The notes under the pieces were generated by a model, which had not been told where the DNA came from, made no database searches, and worked only from the letters and a program-made list of their open reading frames with translations. Below, in pieces: positions 33,998-58,883 of a stretch of DNA of 64,000 bases. A program made the position numbers and the translations under genes. The stretch is taken from assembly GCF_000003815.2 (NCBI RefSeq), contig NC_049981.1, positions 11,881,010 to 11,945,009 on the forward strand, written 5' to 3'. Every line of letters begins with the position of its first letter. Positions within the stretch are counted from its first letter, which is position 1. This DNA comes from Branchiostoma floridae (lineage: Eukaryota > Chordata > Leptocardii > Amphioxiformes > Branchiostomatidae).

Positions 33998-34118
33998 ACA
34001 ACTGTCTGTCAAAAAAAAGCGACCAGGACTGGCGCCATGTGATTTTGTCAGCAGATCTGAGCAATACTGCAAAATTGCATGGCGCCAGCCCTGGTCGCTT
34101 TTTTTGACAGACAGTTGT
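33998..34118. repeat. Long hairpin upstream of the TRIM-like start
   Basis: The arms 33998-34039 and 34078-34118 are near-perfect inverted repeats of about 41 bp around a 38-bp loop. Key blocks are ACTGTCTGTC, an A8 run, GCGACCAG and GGCGCCATG. The motif CAGATCTGAGC recurs inside the loop (34052) and beyond it (34139). It lies 112 bp upstream of the ATG at 33886 and could be a MITE or a structured 5' leader. Confidence 0.75.
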
Positions 34119-47435: not shown

Positions 47436-50400
47436 TCAAGACGTGGAAGGTTGGTGTGCTTCCGGCTTCACCCGAGCTGCGAACTCCTCCGAAACTATAC
47501 AATGGGCCCGAATGCAGACGTCACGGTAGACGTTTTGTCCCCCTTGTACTCGGAGCAGAAGTCCCGCTCTGACGCTCTTCAGTCCGCACTTCTTCGCGTC
47601 GACATAGGGAAATGTAGTCAGGTCCTGGTCTTGTCGGAGAACTTCTAGCATCTGCTGTCTTAGACTGTCTGCCGAGATTCCAAGTCTGGAGACTGTGTCC
47701 ACTACTGCTTCGCAGCTGCAGAATGTCGGCAGGTTGGTCGAGGAAACCTCACAGAGTAGGGTGGCCAGCTTTCCAACGTCCATCTTTCCCGTCACCCTAA
47801 CCCCTCTCGCCTCAACTGTGCCATCAAAGAGGGCGTCTCTTCCGTCTTGTTGTGTCAGGGCCCTCATTTTTCTTGACAGCATTATTGCTGTCAGGTCTGA
47901 CTTAACATGGTTCCAGTAGATCTCAGCCATTGTTTGTGCAAAGCTTGTGTCACAGTCTCTTCCGTTGTGCTCCTGAAAGGCACTGTGGATGGCGGAGAGT
48001 GTTTGGTGCATTCTGCAAAGCATGTCGTTGTCATTGGATGAAACGAGACGCCATGGTGGTGCAGACAGCAGGCCTTCCCGCGCCCATGTGTCGAATAGTC
48101 CTTCCTTTAACGCCCATCCGGAGGTGCCATTAGGTTCCACAAGGCTAGAGAATCCCTCCCAGGGACTGTCTGGGTGAATCCCCAAACCGTGCAGGTACGC
48201 GCTTTTCCGTCTTTCCACCCGCCCAAAAAGCATCAGACGGAAAAGCACTTCGGAAATTGCTATGGTAGTGACTTCAAGACGTGAATGGCCCTGTGTGTTC
48301 TCTACGTTGGCCGCCATAATAGGCTTTGTAAGGTCGGCCAGAATCTTGACAGCGTATTGATGGAGGGCAGATGCATGCACGGGTATTATGACTGGAATAG
48401 AAGCCGACAATTCTCGCCTCAGCGTCGCCACTAGATATTTCACCTGCTCTGTAGCAGCTTCCGTAGTCAAGTCTTCCCCGTCACATGTCAGGACCACTTC
48501 AAACCGGGCATGCGCGCGTGGATTAAGGTCCATTATAATCTCTTCAAGACTGGCTTGCACAGCTCCATCAAGGGCTGTTTGCACAAAACCGTGTGTGGTC
48601 TTTGTGGCATTGTTGAGGGCCAGACCAGAGGCTGCGGCTAGAGTGACTGGCAGACCGCTTGTCAGTGCTTTTGTCCAACCGCTTGACATTTTTGAAGACA
48701 GCGGGTTGTAGGCTTGGGCGTATGTCAGATCAAATGTGTCAGTTGTCATTGCGCGGGACAACGCTGCCGCGGGTCTTCTGTCCTTTCGAGTCGTGACGTT
48801 GATGACAGAGCCCATTCCCATAACGCTGTACTTCTGCCAATTCTGGTTGAACAGTTTGTAGTGCAAGTTCCGATGCCACAGTGAGGACAGAGAACAATCC
48901 TGAAAGCCAACTGACACACCTATATGCACAACGGACCTCCCCACAAACTCCATTCGCATTCTCAGGTCGGCGAGCGTCTTAAGCGGGTCGACGTTAGGGG
49001 TGGCATTTGCGTCATCAAGCTGAGCGGCATTGTTCTCCGTGCTGTGCGCCATTTTCTGGCCGAAACACTCAAGGACTATTTTGACCGTGAATGGGCACGT
49101 TTCTCCGTCTTCCGATATCTGTTGCGCCAGGGCATTGTCAAAGGCCATGGCGAATTGCACCCAGTCAGCCTTGTAGACTCTGATTGGAGTACCGGTTTGT
49201 AGTTTCTGTCGAGCTAAGTTATGGAGGAGAGTGTTAGACGTTGGTGCAAGTTCGCGCAGCTCGTGCCATGTCCGTTTGATCAGACCCTCGGCCCGCTCCG
49301 ACAGCCAGCTTCCCAGGGTAGACGATCCGAGTTGCTCATAGAAGTCTGATGCGGCTTGTGTGTCTGTGTCATGTTTTAAAACTGCGCACAGCACTATGTT
49401 TGTTCCACACAATGACTGGCAGAGAAAAATGCCGGGAACATCCCTTCCATACGTTTGAAGTTGTGCGGTTCTGTAACGCCAGGGTGGAGCCATCTTCTCC
49501 ACAAGCTTTCGGCAGCACTTTGTTTTCCATCTTGTTGCAATAAACACGTCTGATGGAGGACGAATTGCCTGAAGGGATGTCAGCTCTAGCGTAAGGCCGT
49601 CGGTGTCTGTCTGAAGACGAATGGTCTCTGGGTTGGGTGAAATCGCCTCCAACTCACCCTCGAGACATCGATGAATTGAGTGTTTTTCTAGAATATCATC
49701 GTTCGCTCGGAGAACGTCCTCCAAAGTCCTGCATAAGAGGCAAGAGGTACACAATCGTCCTTTAAATGTGCGTGTTTCGGTCTACATATAAAAGTATTAG
49801 GTGACGGCGTTTGCGGTTATTTAGGGACCTATCTGAGGTTCCGTGATATTCAGAGTTGAAAAAAGATGCAAAGATGTGAACACAGCAAACACCTGTGCCC
49901 AATCTAAAATGTGTATTGCAATTTTGAATGTGTATTTCATCGTCGTTACAAGTCATGTTAAGTTTATTGTACATCAGGCACAATCAATGTACGGAAAATA
50001 ACACTAAAACTACATGGCTATCTACGTTATTGTACTAATCCAGCATCATTCCTCAATACAAATATAGTGACATGGTATGTTTCACAATGTTGGTGCACGA
50101 TATACCTAAAATTTACGATTGTGTGCGTACAACGGGAAAAATAATGGTCTAGTTTCGAGTCGTTGGACCATACCATAGTCCAGTGACGGCCAAATAAATG
50201 TATTATAGCCCTAAAAAAAGAGAAAGCCTACCATGGAGGCTACAACTTCATTTCTTTCTGTCTCGTTAGCATTTCCGATCGCTAGTACCGGTGCCCGACC
50301 AAGGATCAACTTCGAAAGCATGGCATATCCTGGCCGAACATTTTAAAGTATCGATGGCTTCTATCATCCTTTAAGCTAAAGGCACAACCCGCCGTACGTG

Positions 50401-51677: not shown

Positions 51678-51693
51678 GGCCCTGAAAAGGGCC
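51678..51693 (-). terminator. Histone-type 3' stem-loop (unknown gene)
   Basis: On the minus strand this reads GGCCCTTTTCAGGGCC, a perfect replication-dependent histone stem-loop with a 6-bp stem and a four-base loop. It starts 10 nt after the stop codon of the gene at 51704. Downstream, GAATAAAGATCTG resembles the U7 target element CAAGAAAGATCT. Confidence 0.92.
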
Positions 51694-51703
51694 GGGGTCT
51701 TGC

Positions 51704-52361
51704 CTATAATGAACTTCCTGGTAGGATCACGAGATACTTGACTTCAGGGTGAGCTGTCTTCAGTTTGGTGATTGTTTGCTGAAGGTCCAGAACAGAGTAG
51801 CAGGTTATTGACGAGTATGTCTTCTCCCAGAACAGCACGTCAAATAGAGGGATGATGAAGTCTCCATTCATTTCACTCAGTTCCGTTTCCACTTCATGAA
51901 GGATGTCTGCTAGGCCGGGCGTTTCCGTTGGTAGCAGAATTGTTCCAGCCCACTCTTCCTCATCTGCTGGGGCGAGATATCCGATGTTCATCGTGGTCTT
52001 GTGTGTCGCTTGTAATGCTGTCGTTGTCTCTTTACCCCCAAAATATATCCTAGGGGCGTGGCCATACCCGTGGGCGTCAGGGTGGGGGCGGGGCATGTGA
52101 CAGAGACAGGTCAAGCCTTCCCAATCCCCACCTCCTCTCCCTCGCTTTCGTGCGGCATGTTGAAATCCGCCCCCTCAAAGTGAGCTCTCCGTAGAGTTCA
52201 AGGAGAAGCATATATGCGTTTGGCGTTTGCGTAGATATTAACAAAGTGCCATGTCCTCTTGTCTCTTGGAGACTTTCCATAATCCAACCAAAGGTGGTAG
52301 GGCTTCCAACTGATGATAGAGTAAAACCAATCAGAGAATACGGAGGGAATATCTTAGCCAA
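51704..52361 (-). CDS. Unknown protein with a histone-type mRNA 3' end
   Basis: Two frames abut: 52361-52077 ([10 protein letters not shown]...) and 52114-51704 (...[13 protein letters not shown]...LVILPGSSL). A GT-AG intron of 82 bp (52131-52050; AGAGGAG|GTGGGG and CCCCTAG|GATATA) joins them in phase, giving 576 nt (191 aa). Without it the gene is frameshifted. A second Met ([11 protein letters not shown], at 52280) would give 164 aa and keep both CCAAT boxes upstream of the start. No family is recognised; the tail looks like an alpha/beta fold, with [32 protein letters not shown] and KYLVILPGS. It ends 10 nt before a histone stem-loop and is divergent from the H3-like gene. An intron is unusual for a stem-loop gene, so the join is tentative. 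Confidence 0.5.
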
Positions 52362-52396
52362 TCAGAGGTCGCAAACGTCCTTGAATCTACTATTGG
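52327..52396. promoter_or_regulatory. Shared CCAAT-rich promoter between divergent genes
   Basis: CCAAT boxes lie at 52327-52331 and 52358-52362 (both CCAATCAGAG) and an inverted one (ATTGG) at 52392-52396. They lie between the unknown minus-strand gene and the H3-like gene (ATG 52497). Divergent CCAAT promoters are typical of metazoan histone gene pairs. No clear TATA box is seen on the plus side. Confidence 0.5.
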
Positions 52397-52496
52397 CTCC
52401 GGTGTTGGACTGATTAATCGCCTTTTCTCGCTCTTCTCTTACAACACAGGACGCTTCTGTGAATCGAATTCAACAAGCAGTAATAAGGCCGCCAGT

Positions 52497-53150
52497 ATGT
52501 CTACAACCAGACGCCCCTCGACCCGAAAGGACCCGAAAATGACCAGCAAGAGAATGGACCACCGTTGCAGGGACAAGGCTAGCAAGCTGCGCGTTTTGAG
52601 TCTGATTACAGAGTACGTTGCCGCTTTCAAAACGCACCTTCCCTTTCCAATCTCGTCATTATTGGTTTTACTAAAGGATAGCAAGTGCACAGCTCGCAAG
52701 CTGCGCTTTTTACGCCTATTGAAAGAGTATGTTGCCGTTTTCAAAACAGATCTGTCCTTTGCAAGATCATCGGCACTTATCGCTTTAAGAGATCAAAATA
52801 ACACCAAAGACTTCAAAAAAGCATACATGCTTTCCAAGCGTGTGTCTCTCTTACCGAAAAACATCACACTTAAAGGTTACAGGAAGCAGCTGGCCAGCAA
52901 GACTGCCAGCAAGAGCGCCCCGGCTACCGGTGGCGTCAAGAAGCCTCACCGCTACAGGCCCGGCACCGTGGCCCTGAGAGAGATCCGTCGCTACCCGAAG
53001 TCAACGGAGCTTCTCACCCGCAAGCTGCCCTTCCAGCGCCAGGTGCGAGACATCACCGCAGACGTCCAGACCGACCTGCGCTTCCAGAGCTCGTCCATCA
53101 TCCCCAAGGACATCCAGCTTGCACGCCGCATCCGAGGGGAACGCACGTAA
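52497..53150 (+). CDS. H3-like protein with three H3-type helix modules (217 aa)
   Basis: An intronless frame. Residues 25-65 ([20 protein letters not shown]) and 66-125 ([20 protein letters not shown], then [10 protein letters not shown] and [10 protein letters not shown]) each resemble the H3 alphaN-alpha1 region; the second also carries an L2-like KRV..PK.I. From about residue 126 there is near-canonical H3: [37 protein letters not shown] and RKLPFQR, then TDLRFQSS joined directly to [15 protein letters not shown]. The alpha2 helix of the last module is therefore missing, and no module has a complete histone fold. The N-terminal H3 tail (ARTKQTARKSTGGK) is absent. The stop is 28 nt before a perfect histone stem-loop and HDE. 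It may be a mosaic variant or a pseudogene kept open by chance. A decayed second copy lies at 56041-57180. Confidence 0.75.
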
Positions 53151-53178
53151 GGAGGATCAGAACAAGATCGACGACCCC

Positions 53179-53215
53179 GGCCCTTTTCAGGGCCACTTAC
53201 ATATCCAAGAAAGAT
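53179..53215 (+). terminator. Histone stem-loop and U7 downstream element (H3-like gene)
   Basis: GGCCCTTTTCAGGGCC at 53179-53194 is followed 9 nt later by CCAAGAAAGATCT. The core CAAGAAAGA is the classic histone downstream element that pairs with U7 snRNA in deuterostomes. Together they specify a non-polyadenylated, S-phase mRNA 3' end. Confidence 0.95.
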
Positions 53216-53568
53216 CTACATCGTTTACGTGTCTAGACATTTGTCCCTCTCCCCCTCCTATTGCACACACAAACCACCCTTACTCAATTGCCACGTTTTA
53301 ATCATGGTTTTCTGAACACGAAAATAAAAACAAAAGCACAATCCCCACGTGTTTACTCGTTCTTTCCGACTACAGGTACATATCGAACCTAATAACTCAG
53401 GATCTAGAGTTAGCCTTTACTAGCGTTAGACTAGAGTAGACACTTGCATTGTTGTTTTTGTTTGTTTGTTTGAATCTATTCATAGTATTATGTTGCCTGC
53501 ATGAGCGCAGGTCGGAGTTTGGGGATTGGAGGTTGTGATTGCTATAGCCCTTTATTGGAGACGTAATA

Positions 53569-53584
53569 TGCCTTGAAAAAGGCC
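53569..53584 (-). terminator. Histone stem-loop (H2B)
   Basis: On the minus strand this reads GGCCTTTTTCAAGGCA, 28 nt after the H2B stop. The outer stem pair is weakened compared with the other six copies. CAATAAAGGGCT downstream is HDE-like. Confidence 0.85.
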
Positions 53585-53612
53585 GGGGTTATCTTGGGTA
53601 CTCTCGGTGGAT

Positions 53613-53969
53613 TTACTTGTGACTAGAGAAATTTCTGATGGCCTTGGTCCCTTCGATTGCAGAAAACTTGGCCAGGTATCCAGGCAAAATGAGTCTGACG
53701 GCTGTCTGGATCTCGCGGCTACTGATGGTGCAGCGCTTGTTGTAGCTAGCCAGAAAAGAAGCCTCCGCCGCAATGCGCTCCAAAATATCGTTCACAAAGC
53801 AGTTCACAATGGCCACCGCCTTTGTTGACAGGCCCATATCAGGATGCAGTAGTTTGAGAACCTTGTTGATGCAGAAACCGAAGGTCTCCCTTCTCCGTCT
53901 TGGCTTTCCACGATTCTTGTTTCCTGTGGATGGAGACTTGCAAAATTCGATTTTAACACTCGGCGGCAT
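53613..53969 (-). CDS. Divergent histone H2B (118 aa)
   Basis: An intronless full-length H2B. After a short basic tail ([13 protein letters not shown]), the fold reads [54 protein letters not shown] and [16 protein letters not shown], ending in SSHK. Canonical H2B is 122-126 aa with more lysine in its tail; here the tail is shorter and carries hydrophobics (VKIEF). The core helices and the REIQTAVR motif are intact, so it should dimerise with H2A. The promoter has an octamer and TATA, and the 3' end has a stem-loop, so it looks like an active replication-dependent variant. Divergence from canonical H2B suggests a specialised (for example germline) role or relaxed selection. Confidence 0.9.
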
Positions 53970-54011
53970 GACTCGAGGTTCTCACATGAACTTCGGCTCC
54001 GCGTCAGAGGG

Positions 54012-54035
54012 TTTATATGATATTACCATGCAAAT
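54012..54035 (-). promoter_or_regulatory. H2B octamer and TATA box
   Basis: On the minus strand ATTTGCAT (54035-54028) precedes TATAAA (54017-54012) by 10 bp, 43 nt upstream of the ATG at 53969. The octamer, bound by Oct-1, is the hallmark H2B-specific promoter element. Further upstream, AGCCAACCAG (near 54102-54093) could serve as the CCAAT-like site. Confidence 0.85.
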
Positions 54036-54039
54036 TAGT

Positions 54040-54497
54040 GGATTGTGCTGTGTTAAACGCGGGCGTGAAATCGACAGAGAAGACTACACCTGTCGCTGGT
54101 TGGCTTTGGCGCCAGTGGGGCGGGAGACCACCACGTCACTTCTACATGCTATTCGTTTGCTATGATTTCCTCATAACAGGATGAATAGAACGCAGTCAAC
54201 AGACCTCCGTCATGAACGCAACGTGTGGGAAATCAAAAAAAATATTTTACCTGCCGCAGCAAGAAATCAAATGGTGTCATTTGCCAGTCAACAGAAAGAG
54301 AGGAAAGTTGGAAAGTTTCAGCGGCAATCATCACGAAATGTTTGGGAATTTATGCAACAGCTACTAACGCCTTCGTAGACTCGGCACAAAGAGAGAGAGA
54401 GAGAGAGGGCAGGAGGGAGAGAGAGAGAGAGAGAGAGAAGGACCAAAGACCTTTTACTGGCTGCGACGTGCAGACGAGTTTGTATTTTGAAAACACT
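54040..54497 (+). other. No intact gene; probable remnant of a lost divergent histone partner
   Basis: A plus-strand gene would be expected here opposite H2B and before the stem-loop at 54498. I find only a weak frame (MNRTQSTDLRHERN...) with no histone similarity and a GAGAGA tract at 54390-54438. Confidence 0.4.
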
Positions 54498-54526
54498 GGC
54501 CCTTTTCAGGGCCACCAACATTTACC
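54498..54526 (+). terminator. Orphan histone stem-loop with HDE
   Basis: GGCCCTTTTCAGGGCC at 54498-54513, then CCAGAAAGAG. It has no intact histone frame upstream. By position it would have ended the gene divergent from H2B, classically an H2A. Confidence 0.85.
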
Positions 54527-54601
54527 AGAAAGAGCGATGTCGTATCAATTTTGCATCATTCCAACTTTCCATTACATATTTCACAAACATTGGACAGACG
54601 T

Positions 54602-54604
<3 letters not shown>

Positions 54605-54650
<46 letters not shown>
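54605..54650. repeat. (CA)n microsatellite
   Basis: An uninterrupted CA run of about 46 bp, with the plus-strand orphan stem-loop to its left and the minus-strand SET gene 3' end to its right. Confidence 0.95.
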
Positions 54651-54652
<2 letters not shown>

Positions 54653-54791
54653 TAAACAGTACGAATGGACAGGGTACCCGGGTCTATCGTTGCATTTTTT
54701 AATAGTAGGATTAAAAACCTAATTCATAATAACAATACATGCAGTAACCACAACTACGTGAGGAATATAGTCCTTTTGTGATCATGTTTAT

Positions 54792-54807
54792 GGCCCTAAA
54801 AAGGGCC
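54792..54807 (-). terminator. Histone-type stem-loop ending the SET-domain gene
   Basis: On the minus strand this reads GGCCCTTTTTAGGGCC, 34 nt after the SET gene stop codon, with CACAAAAGGACT downstream as a candidate U7 site. The stem is perfect; one loop base differs from the TTTC consensus. Confidence 0.88.
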
Positions 54808-54841
54808 GGATGTTTTCTGGTTCGTGGCGGATACATAGCTC

Positions 54842-55747
54842 TCATTCGGTCAGGTACGAGAGATCCTGACAAGGAACGGGCTCTTCTTTGTCGGTCTCCG
54901 AGATAGAGAGTGGGCATAGCGTCTGAGACTGCCTCAAAAAGTCTGGTCCGTGTTTCTCCCCGTAGTCAAACAGCAGCTCAGTTCCACATGCAATGTCCCG
55001 TTTGGCTATCAGAATGACTGCTGGACCGTCTAAATGTCCTCCTGTGACAGTTGAAGCCTTAAGATTTGCATTATTTCGGCTGTGGTTAATCAGCGCTGCC
55101 GGATTGTGGTCAGAGCGACTCCCGTCAATTACAGTCGGTGGTTTTCCATTCGTGTACACCCATAGAAGTTTGGCGTGTTCACCGTCTGGCATGTTGGCTA
55201 GGCGAACATGCGCCTGCTCGTCTGATAATCGTTGACCTCTGTACTCAGCAACAATCGATCCGCGACGAATTGTTTCCGATGCTATAGCACAGAGTCCAGC
55301 CATTCTGAAATCTTTTTTGACCTGCCTTGCGCGAAACGGAACGTGCCTATCTAAAGGCGTTTTCGTCAAATAGTGGAGCATGTCTTGCCTGGTTGTCCGC
55401 TGTAGATGTCTGCTGGGTCTTGTGAGTTGTATACCGGAATACCCTCTTACACCTTTCTGAAGCTTTTTACGGTCGACCAGTACTTTGCCGCGTCGGTTTT
55501 TGCTTAGAAGTGCCGATGCAACTTGCCTCTCGAAGCGTCGCTTTGTTAACATAGCAGCCATTTGTCTGTCCGAATCCGACCTGATCTCACAGTACGTCTG
55601 GTGAGCGTGACGCAGCTCGTCAGTTGCCACAAAATTGCTGGAATCACCTGTGACGTGTACGCAGTCTTCCAGCCAATCATTCAAAAATGGTAGCCGAACT
55701 ATTTTTTTACGCCGGCCATTTAAAACGTCCCTAATATGAGACCCCAT
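54842..55747 (-). CDS. SET-domain putative histone methyltransferase with D5/RFX-like winged-helix N-terminus
   Basis: An intronless 301-aa frame. Residues about 148-270 form a SET domain: GLCAIASETIRRGSIVAEYR, ALINHSRNNANLK (the NHS motif) and VILIAKRDIACGTELLFDYG. The ILIA.RDI..G.EL..DYG pattern is closest, from memory, to KMT5A (SET8), which monomethylates H4K20 in cycling cells. Residues about 18-110 (FLNDWLEDCVHVTG, a LRHAHQTYCEI segment, then GYSGIQL) resemble the winged-helix segment found at the C-terminus of D5/P4-type primases and in RFX factors. That part is tentative. There is no pre-SET cysteine cluster. Its TATA box, E2F-like site and histone stem-loop point to S-phase expression. 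The D5-like part, if real, suggests capture from or by a DNA virus or mobile element. Confidence 0.8.
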   Translation of the reverse strand: MGSHIRDVLNGRRKKIVRLPFLNDWLEDCVHVTGDSSNFVATDELRHAHQTYCEIRSDSDRQMAAMLTKRRFERQVASALLSKNRRGKVLVDRKKLQKGVRGYSGIQLTRPSRHLQRTTRQDMLHYLTKTPLDRHVPFRARQVKKDFRMAGLCAIASETIRRGSIVAEYRGQRLSDEQAHVRLANMPDGEHAKLLWVYTNGKPPTVIDGSRSDHNPAALINHSRNNANLKASTVTGGHLDGPAVILIAKRDIACGTELLFDYGEKHGPDFLRQSQTLCPLSISETDKEEPVPCQDLSYLTE

Positions 55748-55785
55748 CTTCTCCTTCTTCTCGTTATTTCTAAAAGCGCCGGTGG

Positions 55786-55862
55786 TATATAAGTGCGGTA
55801 AGATTTAGTAGCTTAGAGCGATGGATAAGAAAGAATTGTTAGCAGGGGAAGTTCCCGCCAAT
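55786..55862 (-). promoter_or_regulatory. SET gene promoter: TATA and E2F/CCAAT-like site
   Basis: On the minus strand TATATA (55791-55786) lies 39 nt upstream of the ATG. ATTGGCGGGAA (55862-55852) combines an inverted CCAAT with an E2F-type GGCGGGAA core. E2F sites are typical of genes switched on at the G1/S boundary. Confidence 0.6.
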
Positions 55863-56040
55863 AGAAAGCAAGCCCCGCCCCAGCCTTACATGAAAATAGT
55901 TTGCACTGAGGCTTAAACAAACAAGTACAATACGGCACAATGGGAAAGCAAGCGTGAACGATGTACGGCTTCAGGGATTACGTTGGTGGCCGTGAAAAGA
56001 GTCGGTATTTCCCTTTCTTCCGGCCGACAAAAGAACAGCA

Positions 56041-56160
56041 AGGCCAAAGAGTCTGCGTATTTTTCACATATTAACAGAATATGTTGCCATTTTTAAAACG
56101 CATCTACTTGTACCATCGGCTCTACTTGCTTTACGACAGAAAGCACAAAAATCCAAAAGG
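56041..56160 (+). pseudogene. Decayed H3-like module
   Basis: One frame reads RPKSLRIFHILTEYVAIFKT, then HLLVPSALLALRQKAQKSK. It matches the first two modules of the H3-like protein at 52497 ([20 protein letters not shown]). There is no start or continuous frame. With the duplicated 3' region at 56835-57180 it marks a broken second copy of that gene. Confidence 0.7.
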
Positions 56161-56834
56161 CGATGGTGCTTACGAATGAATAAAGTCTTTATTTACTTAT
56201 TTCACACCACACTCGAAGAACGGAGCCCACAAAGGAAATTCCAACATGGATTAATTTTCCTTTCCGTAGCCGTGAACAGCCTTTTACTGGCACCAGCACA
56301 GGTGTCTCCAGACTGATGACTGATAAAGATTAGGTCACCGTTTCACCTTTCCGGCCCGACCGGGATGTTTAAAAAAAAACAGAAATTAAAATGTATACCT
56401 TGAAATGCAGACAACTCAGGCCGATAAATCTTCTTTTGATATTTTGTGTATTTTGCTGACTTTTATATCATTATTTTCTCTCCCGAAAGCTGTCTGGCCG
56501 GACCCAGGTTTGGAAATGTGACCTAAGCCTGAGTTTCACGATGACCCTAGCACATAACTACACAATGAACAGCGGACCACATTTTTAGGGAGCGGCCACA
56601 CTTGTGCGGATCTTTCAGTCCGTATAAGTGATTTAGGTAAACTTTGCAGGGATTAAATCGTATTACACTGCCTGCCCTCAACACCATAAAACCGTCTAGG
56701 TATGGCTCATAAGTGAACGTTTCGTGTGCTTTTTCCGAAATGATCTAAAAAAATAGCCGTAGAAACTACAGGTGCATGTACGTGGTGCAAACGCGCTTGG
56801 GGTGTCTTGGCTAGAAGTTGGTACAGCTTCATAT
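56161..56834. other. No gene recognised
   Basis: AT-rich sequence between the H3-like fragment and the orphan stem-loop. GCCTTTTACTGGC at 56280 and near 54453 (CCTTTTACTGGC) look like decayed stem-loops but are not convincing. Confidence 0.4.
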
Positions 56835-57180
56835 CAGAATCAGGATCAGAACAAGATCGACAACCCCGGCCCTTTTCAGGGCCACCTACCTTTCCCAGAA
56901 AGATCTATATCGTTCACGTTTCTTGCAACATTTGAATCAGAATCACTGTTACACAGTTTACACGTTTGCCCATACTTGCACACACAAACCAATCAGCCGA
57001 CAGGGGATTAAATTAGTACTTGTGAAATAATAGACTCCCAGCCCCAAACAACCAAGAAATCAAATAAAAGAAAAAAGAAACTTGTTTTCCACGTTTTAAC
57101 CATGCGTTTCTGACCGCGAAAATACAACGTACGCCCTTCACGTGTTCTATCGTTTTCTCTGACCACGCGTACATATAATA
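56835..57180 (+). repeat. Duplicate of the H3-like gene 3' flank with orphan stem-loop
   Basis: GGATCAGAACAAGATCGAC, a perfect stem-loop GGCCCTTTTCAGGGCC (56868-56883) and CCAGAAAGATCTATATCGTT repeat the arrangement at 53156-53225. CACGTTTTAA.CATG and TTTCTGA.C.CGAAAATA repeat 53291-53330. The coding part before it is mostly lost. Confidence 0.8.
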
Positions 57181-57474
57181 TAGAGGTATGTCAGCTAGCA
57201 GGAAGCGACACACTTGTAAGGAAGACTATAGTGCGGTCATTTCTGACGTGATATGGCAACCAGTCTTGCTCACAAATGTTGTCTGTCAGGAATATAGAAA
57301 AGGTATAGATTTGTCTAAGCAGATGTGCGTGTTTTGTTTTGGTGTGCGTGTGTGTGTGTGGTGGGGGGGTTATTTCATACACGCATTTATTTTCTGTATT
57401 AGTTTTCTTATAGAATAGCTGTATGTAAAGTAAGTTTAGTGATCATGATACAGTTCTTTCGAGAGGATGTGGGT
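57181..57474. other. Intergenic, with G/T simple tract
   Basis: No gene is seen. A GTGTGTGTG/GGGGGG tract lies at 57345-57368. Confidence 0.5.
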
Positions 57475-57490
57475 GGCCCTGAAAAGGGCC
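57475..57490 (-). terminator. Histone stem-loop (H2A pseudogene)
   Basis: On the minus strand this is a perfect GGCCCTTTTCAGGGCC, 26 nt after the H2A stop, followed by ACCCACATCC and the HDE-like CGAAAGAACTG. Confidence 0.95.
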
Positions 57491-57516: not shown

Positions 57517-57795
57517 TTACTGAGCCTTGCTGGTCTTCTTGGGCAGAAGCACGGCGTGGATGTTGGGGAGAACGCCGCCCTGTGCAATGGTGACGCCGGA
57601 CAACAGCTTGTTCAACTCCTCGTCGTTGCGGACGGCCAGTTGAAGGTGACGAGGGATGATCCTGGTCTTCTTGTTGTCGCGGGCAGCGTTACCGGCCAGC
57701 TCGAGGATCTCGGCGGTCAGGTACTCGAGCACCGCCGCCAAGTACACAGGGGCCCGGCACCCACGCGCTCGGCAAATTTTACCTCGCACAAGAAG
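57517..57795 (-). pseudogene. Histone H2A, 5'-truncated and frameshifted
   Basis: The frame to the stop at 57517 reads [40 protein letters not shown] and [17 protein letters not shown], essentially canonical H2A from alpha2 onward. Before it, a different frame reads KFAERVGAG, matching the canonical NYAERVGAG. The GCC-GGG-CCC junction near 57751-57758 has lost bases relative to the usual GCCGGCGCCCC. Sequence further upstream does not resemble the H2A tail or alpha1. It is thus disrupted, although its downstream coding portion and 3' processing signals are pristine, implying recent loss or a sequencing or assembly error. Confidence 0.88.
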
Positions 57796-58117: not shown

Positions 58118-58883
58118 ATGGATCAGGTAGACGGGACACCACAGGAAATGAGGTTTGTGTTTCATTAGCTAATAGCAAGCATATAGCATAATTAGGTTGT
58201 GTAGATATGAGAAAGTAAAGTCAAAGGACTACGTTTTAAGTTTTGTGTCTTTCGTTGTCTTATGTATGATTTTTCGTTTCCGAAAGCTACCCGGCCGGGC
58301 CCCGGACTGCTTGTGAAAACGAAACATATGGATGTATACGTAGAGATATACTCAACTATTTTTTTTTACGTCTTGCGTAGTTTGGTCTCTTTTATATCAT
58401 ACTTTTCCTTCCCAAAATCTACCCAGCCGCGCCTCGGTTTGGAAATGTGACGAAGGCCGAAGTTAATGGTAGAGGAATATATAGATACTGTATAAACTGA
58501 ATTCCCTATAACTCATATGTCAACATTGTTGTTATTTCAGTGAGGCAGGAATCTACAGATGCGAGCACTGCGGAAAATCGTTCAGCCGCAGACACACGCT
58601 GGTGGTTCACGTTAGAGCACACACAGGCGAGCGCCCCTACAGCTGCGAACAGTGCGACAAAAGCTTTTCCAGAAAGGATACCTTGGAGGACCATGTGAGG
58701 ACGCACACTGGTGAGAAACCCTACAAATGCGAAGAGTGCGACAAGACTTTTAGAACTCTGTCAACTTGTAGAATTCATTTGAGAACACACACCGGAGAGA
58801 AACCTTTTATGTGCGGACAATGCAAGAAGCGTTTCAGCACAAAACAGAACTGTGTTCGGCACGTTGGCAAACACTTCAAGTAA
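58118..58883 (+). CDS. Small four-finger C2H2 zinc-finger protein (125 aa)
   Basis: Exon 1 is 58118-58152 (MDQVDGTPQEM plus AG). It joins exon 2, 58541-58883, after a GTTATTTCAG acceptor, forming SEAGIYRCEHC in phase (35 + 343 = 378 nt). Four complete C2H2 fingers follow, with Kruppel-type linkers: YRCEHCGKSFSRRHTL, YSCEQCDKSFSRKDTL, YKCEECDKTFRTLSTC and FMCGQCKKRFSTKQNC, linked by TGERP/TGEKP. The last ends HVGKHFK. No KRAB, BTB or SET partner domain is present. It is likely a sequence-specific DNA-binding protein or competitor. A poly(A) signal AATAAA lies at 59257, so unlike its neighbours it probably uses ordinary polyadenylation. Confidence 0.85.

Follow-up and report, generated by a model that had tools for sequence, protein, structure and literature searches.

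A stretch of 64,000 nucleotides from the lancelet Branchiostoma floridae (contig NC_049981.1, positions 11,881,010 to 11,945,009 of the forward strand; located on contig C3 and hereafter called the window) harbors seven copies of the 3' stem-loop (SL) of replication-dependent histone mRNAs, all between positions 51,678 and 57,490. Three of the seven are assigned to non-histone genes, namely U95, S65 and a SET-domain gene (SET), while two (57475, 56868) belong to histone genes that are dead or lost. SLs of this type recur at other loci of the same gene families, and the non-histone genes probably own them as working 3' ends. The non-histone genes and their SLs are listed below, with scores from R1, a covariance model built from 46 canonical B. 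floridae histone 3' ends, all from outside the window.

51678..51693, -, SL of U95, 10 nt past the stop codon, downstream element overlapping AATAAA (R1 61.2 bits)
51704..51991, -, U95, a 95-aa non-histone gene by codon usage, genome relatives and dN/dS (ratio of nonsynonymous to synonymous substitution rates)
54181..54378, +, S65, a 65-aa basic non-histone open reading frame (ORF), head-to-head with an H2B gene, homologues in loci L038, L052 and L064
54498..54513, +, likely SL of S65, 119 nt past the S65 stop codon with a GA repeat between (R1 59.1 bits)
54792..54807, -, SL of SET, 34 nt past the stop codon, UUUU loop (R1 42.7 bits, E 1.6e-8)
54842..55747, -, SET, 301 aa in one open frame, N-terminal Pox_D5-like domain and KMT5A-like SET domain
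55748..55870, -, SET promoter region, TATATA at -44 and ATTGGCGGGAA (CCAAT + E2F-like) at about -115

Stem-loops in the window and across the genome

When the window was scanned with the histone SL pattern GGCCCTTTTYAGGGCC, allowing up to 2 mismatches, 6 matches were obtained, all of them exact (51678-, 53179+, 54498+, 54792-, 56868+, 57475-), against a chance expectation of 0.02 matches (mean of 100 shuffles), and a chance origin of the SLs is excluded. A seventh SL at 53569 (-) is degenerate, with 5 of 6 pairs. In a search with the Rfam model RF00032 (gathering cut-off 34 bits), five SLs of the window lie above gathering (34.1-38.4 bits), among them those of SET (34.1) and S65 (38.4), while the U95 SL falls just under it (32.8) and the H2B SL at 53569 reaches 16.5 bits. 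Over the 64 kb, R1 scores the seven SLs at 35.1-73.3 bits and also detects a decayed eighth SL at 55988-56003 (-) with 21.0 bits, one that is absent from the Rfam output; the best match besides these eight scores 11.0 bits. The 3' ends at 53179, 56868 and 57475 belong to the canonical H3 and H2A types, and their high R1 scores are partly due to recent shared descent with such ends.

The first-pass annotation of this DNA had placed seven SLs, and all are found where it put them, six perfect and 53569 degenerate; the covariance search that it proposed gave the scores above. Its statement that each SL lies 10-34 nt from a stop codon or is orphaned holds for U95 (10 nt), the H3-like gene and H2B (28 nt each) and SET (34 nt), whereas the supposed orphan at 54498 has a likely owner in S65. 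To the two non-histone genes that it named, SET and the 51.7-kb gene (U95), S65 is thus added as a third. HDE-like sequence (HDE, histone downstream element), said to follow most SLs, is indeed present, but the exact CAAGAAAGA occurs in the window only at 53179, and the remaining SLs carry variants. At the usual distance, a purine-rich HDE is clear at U95 and S65 (AAAGAT, AAAGAG) and weaker at SET (AAAAGGACTATA).

SET, U95 and S65 are uninterrupted frames and gave no histone match with Pfam or in tblastn with histone queries. The assignment of 54498 to S65 is likely, not certain, and is made because a homologous ORF stands beside a U95 relative in L038; a 40-codon frame without an ATG ends 7 nt before this SL. 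U95 most likely starts at the ATG at 51991. A longer, 130-aa frame reaches 52096, and appears less probable as coding sequence: codon-usage z, trained on four ORFs of the window, is 4.7 for the 95-aa part and -0.7 for the extension, and the 130-aa frame has no relative in the protein database. Predicted structures are of too low quality to serve in fold searches (mean predicted local distance difference test, pLDDT, 47.5 for SET and 43.1 for U95).

Two further signals were considered and set aside. A motif beyond the HDE was rejected as a new element, as the longer motif AAAGARCTRTATC is general among canonical B. floridae histone 3' ends; it is compatible with the 5' end of vertebrate U7. The comparison of SL conservation with flank divergence as a proof of selection for SET (p 0.02) gave 0.002 for the H2A pseudogene and 0.011 for the S65 SL, and is uninformative because canonical flanks vary by gene type.

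Genome-wide, the RF00032 search scored at least 75 places out of 84,422 candidates, the SLs at SET and 56868 not being among them, and among 14 control genomes a single one gave a signal, below the cut-off. Upstream sequence was examined for 69 of the 75 places; a histone coding end lies within 70 nt at 59 (pseudogenes included: H3 15, H2A 12, H1 11, H2B 11, H4 9 and the H3-like gene of the window 1) and none at 10. Four of these 10 SLs come after non-histone coding regions (C19:3.55 Mb, C9:16.17 Mb, C5:0.87 Mb and S65 of the window), two are H3 relics (L033, L034), the locus of one provides just 375 nt upstream of it, and three above the cut-off are without a recognised owner (L039 and L040, a duplicate pair at C3:4.42 and 4.79 Mb, and L041 at C3:18.42 Mb). 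The gene on C19 (L009:1562-2332, -) encodes a non-histone protein of 256 aa and has its SL 20 nt past the stop codon (R1 50.5 bits, above the Rfam cut-off); the copy at C9:16.17 Mb (L031; R1 61.6 bits, also above) is related to it by pieces of 42-50% identity. The C-terminus of this C19/C9 family gives a weak match to P2RX7_C (E 0.24).

Gene families, selection and the surrounding cluster

The U95 family comprises 12 known loci, 11 from a genome search (window included) and L038, and the SL is intact at three. U110 (L038, C5), a relative of U95 with 26% identity (E 2e-6), is followed by two tandem SLs (L038:3055-3146, +) with the loops UCUC and UUUC, of which the first lies above the Rfam cut-off and the second below it at 24.0 bits (R1 56.0 and 32.4 bits); the SL has thus been retained in both genes despite just 26% identity. 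The intact SL of U100 (L064, C5) scores 56.9 bits with R1 and 32.7 bits, just under the cut-off, with Rfam. In a tree of 10 of the 12 loci, one broken and one partial copy being omitted, copies with an SL or its relic lie on either side of the midpoint and five SL-less copies stand together, no branch reaching the tool's high-support mark. One old SL of the U95 family with later losses would be the simplest reading, with repeated capture as a conceivable alternative.

S65 belongs to a family with four known loci (window, L038, L052 and L064). In L064 its member S70 is paired head-to-head with U100 and is followed, 20 nt past the S70 stop codon, by a separate SL (Rfam 36.2 bits, above the cut-off; R1 31.4 bits), in L038 the homologue is head-to-head with U110, and in L052 with a SET paralogue; the S65 gene pairing is thus old. 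On the unplaced contig C196, SET-type genes (one degenerate), S65 and four U95 copies are clustered at 4.3-21.8 kb (L052, L066, L067). The SET paralogue there is 61% identical and corresponds to the database protein LOC118408087, the end of which is unlike that of the genomic frame, suggesting splicing at C196; the degenerate SET-type copy has GGCCCTTTTTAGGGCA two bases past its stop codon, a partial R1 match (12.6 bits, E 0.98). A relative of the SET N-terminal domain on C279 (217 aa, without the SET domain) is followed by a perfect SL (R1 61.7 bits, above the Rfam cut-off), the H2A-type flanks of which suggest capture from an H2A gene.

Between the window and C11 copies of U95, dN/dS is 0.31 (dS 0.45), and between SET of the window and of C196 dN is 0.33 with dS saturated, so that both look like functional proteins under purifying selection. 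For S65 (0.52 against the C196 copy) and the H3-like units (0.56), this is less certain.

The nearest solved relative of the SET domain is 4ldg, a SET protein deposited under a name other than KMT5A, followed by KMT5A/SETD8 chains. Like KMT5A (SET8, PR-Set7), the SET protein of the window keeps the NHS motif and the catalytic DYG tyrosine, and it may be a chromatin lysine methyltransferase. It differs in being only about 34% identical to human KMT5A and in its Pox_D5-like N-terminal domain, and it is not the KMT5A orthologue, since the genome's own KMT5A is separate (L054, C11, pieces of 66-75% identity). The Pox_D5 domain is typical of viral primase-helicases. The resemblance to it (Pfam PF03288) is seen in 2 of 4 aligned family members (best E 1.7e-5; window protein alone 0.23), the domain also weakly resembles phage primases, and a PDB search with its alignment gave chance-level matches only. 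KMT5A is an H4K20 monomethylase, and its Tyr334 is tied to monomethylation through the Phe/Tyr switch. A further difference is that the window protein has F260 at this place, with Phe in all three aligned amphioxus SET sequences, and by analogy with the switch it may be capable of more than monomethylation. The best human chain in the profile search was the SETD8 Y334F mutant, the structures of which include one with dimethyl-lysine (PMC3529403).

Around these genes lie the following histone genes and relics:

52497..53150, +, chimeric H3-like ORF made of two H3-derived units followed by an H3 tail and a core minus about 30 residues (alpha-2)
53179..53194, +, SL of the H3-like gene, same type as at canonical H3 loci such as L023 (R1 64.3 bits)
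53569..53584, -, SL of H2B, degenerate (5 of 6 pairs), AATAAA in HDE position (R1 35.1 bits)
53613..53969, -, divergent H2B gene, Pfam Histone 1.6e-16, octamer and TATA promoter
55988..56003, -, decayed 3' end of histone type, the eighth of the window, with 4 of 6 pairs and the downstream element retained (R1 21.0 bits)
56041..56214, +, H3-like pseudogene fragment
56868..56883, +, SL of a lost H3 gene, canonical H3 type, matching the 3' end at 53.2 kb with 90% identity over 82 nt
57475..57490, -, SL of the H2A pseudogene, perfect (R1 73.3 bits)
57532..57795, -, H2A pseudogene, 5'-truncated and frameshifted

Intact B. floridae clusters hold divergent H4|H3 (L007) and H2B|H2A (L016, L017, L026) pairs. 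In the window, U95 lies opposite the H3-like gene and S65 opposite H2B, at the places of H4 and H2A, an arrangement suggesting that each occupies the former site of a histone gene. The 211 nt between H2B and S65 contain an octamer, a TATA box and E2F-like sites, the H2B promoter having ATTTGCAT at -66 and TATAAA at -48, while between U95 and the H3-like gene the H3 side carries three boxes of the CCAAT or ATTGG type, and there is no TATA by the consensus pattern used.

The tail of the H3-like chimera is that of a canonical-type H3. The portion consisting of H3-derived units recurs head-to-head with U95 on C11 (67% identical), so that tandem units of the type MSTTR..P.ARKDP.. are found beside U95 on both C3 (52497-53150) and C11 (L056:388-663, -); the C11 units are without the canonical H3 part, and the units of both contigs would form an H3-derived lineage of their own. 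A 685-aa ORF at 47436-49493 (-) has no Pfam match, and a piece much like its C-terminal part lies downstream of the C11 U95 (L056:1924-2214, +; compared by eye), so the C3-C11 duplication seems to span the H3-like, U95 and 685-aa ORF genes. C2H2 zinc-finger coding sequence adjoins the cluster at 58541-58880 (+), and a long inverted repeat at 34013-34104 (-) matches ciona-mir-92 at 31.6 bits (gathering 56), being probably a repeat, not a microRNA.

Probable histone-type processing of non-histone genes and rival explanations

The explanation favored here, with moderate confidence, is that the non-histone genes, namely U95, S65, Pox_D5-SET and those of the C19/C9 family, have histone-type 3' ends that are genuinely their own and are probably processed at least partly like histone mRNAs. 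The SLs with their U7-type downstream elements, their positions, their recurrence and the selection on U95 and SET can all be read from the sequence, and the recurrence of SLs at other loci of the same families means that they are not a single accident. Capture of histone 3' processing by a non-histone S-phase module, as the first-pass annotation had put it, is borne out in part, insofar as complete histone-type 3' ends are found on non-histone genes and again at these other loci, whereas the promoter motifs are mixed, E2F-like consensus matches being present in 2 of 7 intergenic regions scanned.

As to transcription, the use of U7 and the stem-loop-binding protein (SLBP), timing and mode of capture, the following course may be proposed. 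The pre-mRNAs of these non-histone genes would be cut a few nucleotides past the SL by the U7 snRNP (small nuclear ribonucleoprotein), and the resulting mRNAs would be SLBP-bound, non-polyadenylated at least in part, and produced during S phase or in early embryos. U95, the downstream element of which overlaps AATAAA, could be able to switch to polyadenylation, and U95 and S65 probably gained histone promoters together with 3' ends through recombination with histone genes. More tentatively, and close to an even call, lancelets may possess a group of non-histone genes (U95, S65, Pox_D5-SET, C19/C9), old and dispersed, that end their mRNAs via the histone SL/SLBP/U7 machinery.

Several observations weigh against the favored explanation. 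Perfect SLs persist at 57475, 56868, L033 and L034, where the histone gene is dead or lost, and, as the two in the window imply, an intact SL alone proves nothing. The codon-usage signal of SET is weak (z 1.4), its downstream region scores lowest among the six perfect SLs in a leave-one-out comparison, and its score is reached at 1 of 127,870 background positions (3 for H2B, 0 for the others). AATAAA lies 11-12 nt past the SL at U95 and H2B, and AATAAA or ATTAAA 83-137 nt past the other five. Among the U95 copies, those on C11 (74% identical) and at C9:0.96 Mb have a broken SL with the downstream element kept (R1 23.7 and 27.2 bits), and seven other loci of the 12 have no clear R1 match, only 11.7 bits being reached near C196:21.5 kb; a hairpin with 5 of 6 pairs downstream of another C196 copy is not picked up by R1. 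The S65 SL was undetected at 2 of 4 loci (L038, L052), and no SL was detected downstream of the 61% identical SET paralogue on C196. At C9:16.17 Mb the similarity to the C19 gene shifts frame and the nearest frame reads through the SL without a stop codon; this copy looks truncated or spliced. The two E2F-like matches lie before SET and between H2B and S65, and the consensus scan found none at U95/H3-like, L064, L038, L052 or L056. The genome search with RF00066 (U7) found no U7 gene above the Rfam cut-off (7 matches, best 23.1 bits against 34), and 12 of 14 control genomes also ring below it.

The signals close to the SLs are the basis of the alternative that survives best, possible if somewhat doubtful, in which both ends are used as in human H2AC18: SL/U7 and a polyadenylation signal (PAS) would each be functional, the SL form being restricted to S phase, and U95 and the divergent H2B would be partly of the replacement type. 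The HDE position reads CGAATAAAGAT at U95 and CCAATAAAGGG at H2B, with AATAAA inside both, an overlap like that reported for H2AC18 (PMC9756948), and the C11 U95 copy has lost its SL and kept AATAAAG. There is, however, no such overlap at SET or S65, where the nearest signals lie at +88 and +137.

It is rather unlikely that the SLs are functionless leftovers of decayed or overwritten histone genes, with the non-histone genes polyadenylated downstream or silent. The same window does hold perfect SLs that belong to a truncated H2A, to a lost H3 and to a chimeric H3, orphan H3-type SLs occur at L033 and L034, a poly(A) signal lies within 200 nt of each of the seven SLs, and the SL is broken in two U95 duplicates and was not found after the close SET paralogue. 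Yet SLs recur after U95, S65, SET-domain and C19/C9 genes on several chromosomes, U110 has tandem SLs, the proteins show selection, and the non-histone families are not histone debris. Unlikely too, and in any case a question of origin compatible with the best explanation, is that U95, S65 and Pox_D5-SET are cargo of an element, selfish or of viral origin, that spreads through the amphioxus genome and took up histone 3' ends to couple its expression to replication: the Pox_D5-like and weakly phage-primase-like N-terminal domain of SET, the clustering of SET, S65 and four U95 copies on C196, and the dispersed, fast-evolving families would fit this, but viral contigs searched with the SET alignment gave no relative, and purifying selection on SET equally fits a host gene.

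Comparison with known systems

If histone-type processing of these genes is confirmed, their transcripts would form the first class of SL-ended non-histone mRNAs in metazoans, and a KMT5A-like chromatin methyltransferase would be under replication-coupled control. SLBP/U7 processing would then be a tag for replication-coupled expression that evolution can attach to other genes, and such mRNAs could escape annotation based on poly(A)-selected RNA. Paralogues with and without an SL in one genome (U95 on C3 and C11; SET on C3 and C196) provide a clean test system. Two sources regard the histone 3' end as exclusive to histones (PMC6303110; PMC2781718), one of them reporting no evidence for binding of non-histone RNAs by Slbp (PMC2781718), and the literature searched, mostly open-access and at abstract level, described no natural metazoan non-histone gene that ends in this way.

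The ends described here share with the replication-dependent histone 3' end (RF00032, SLBP/U7) the 6-bp stem, the 4-base loop, the purine-rich downstream element and uninterrupted frames, as well as a short 3' UTR (untranslated region) at U95 and SET (gaps of 10 and 34 nt; 119 nt at S65), and differ from it in that SET, U95 and S65 code for non-histones. The UUUU and UCUC loops are also present among human histone SLs (PMC7807067). In human H2AC18, the PAS overlaps the HDE and either machinery is assembled (PMC9756948); at U95 and H2B of amphioxus there is a broadly similar overlap of AATAAA with the HDE position, and U95, unlike H2AC18, is a non-histone gene. Oikopleura, also a chordate, has histone genes with an SL and a polyadenylation signal together (PMC3156773), so that the two signals coexist in both animals, but there they are histone genes without an HDE, whereas in B. 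floridae the HDE is present and the genes concerned are not histone genes.

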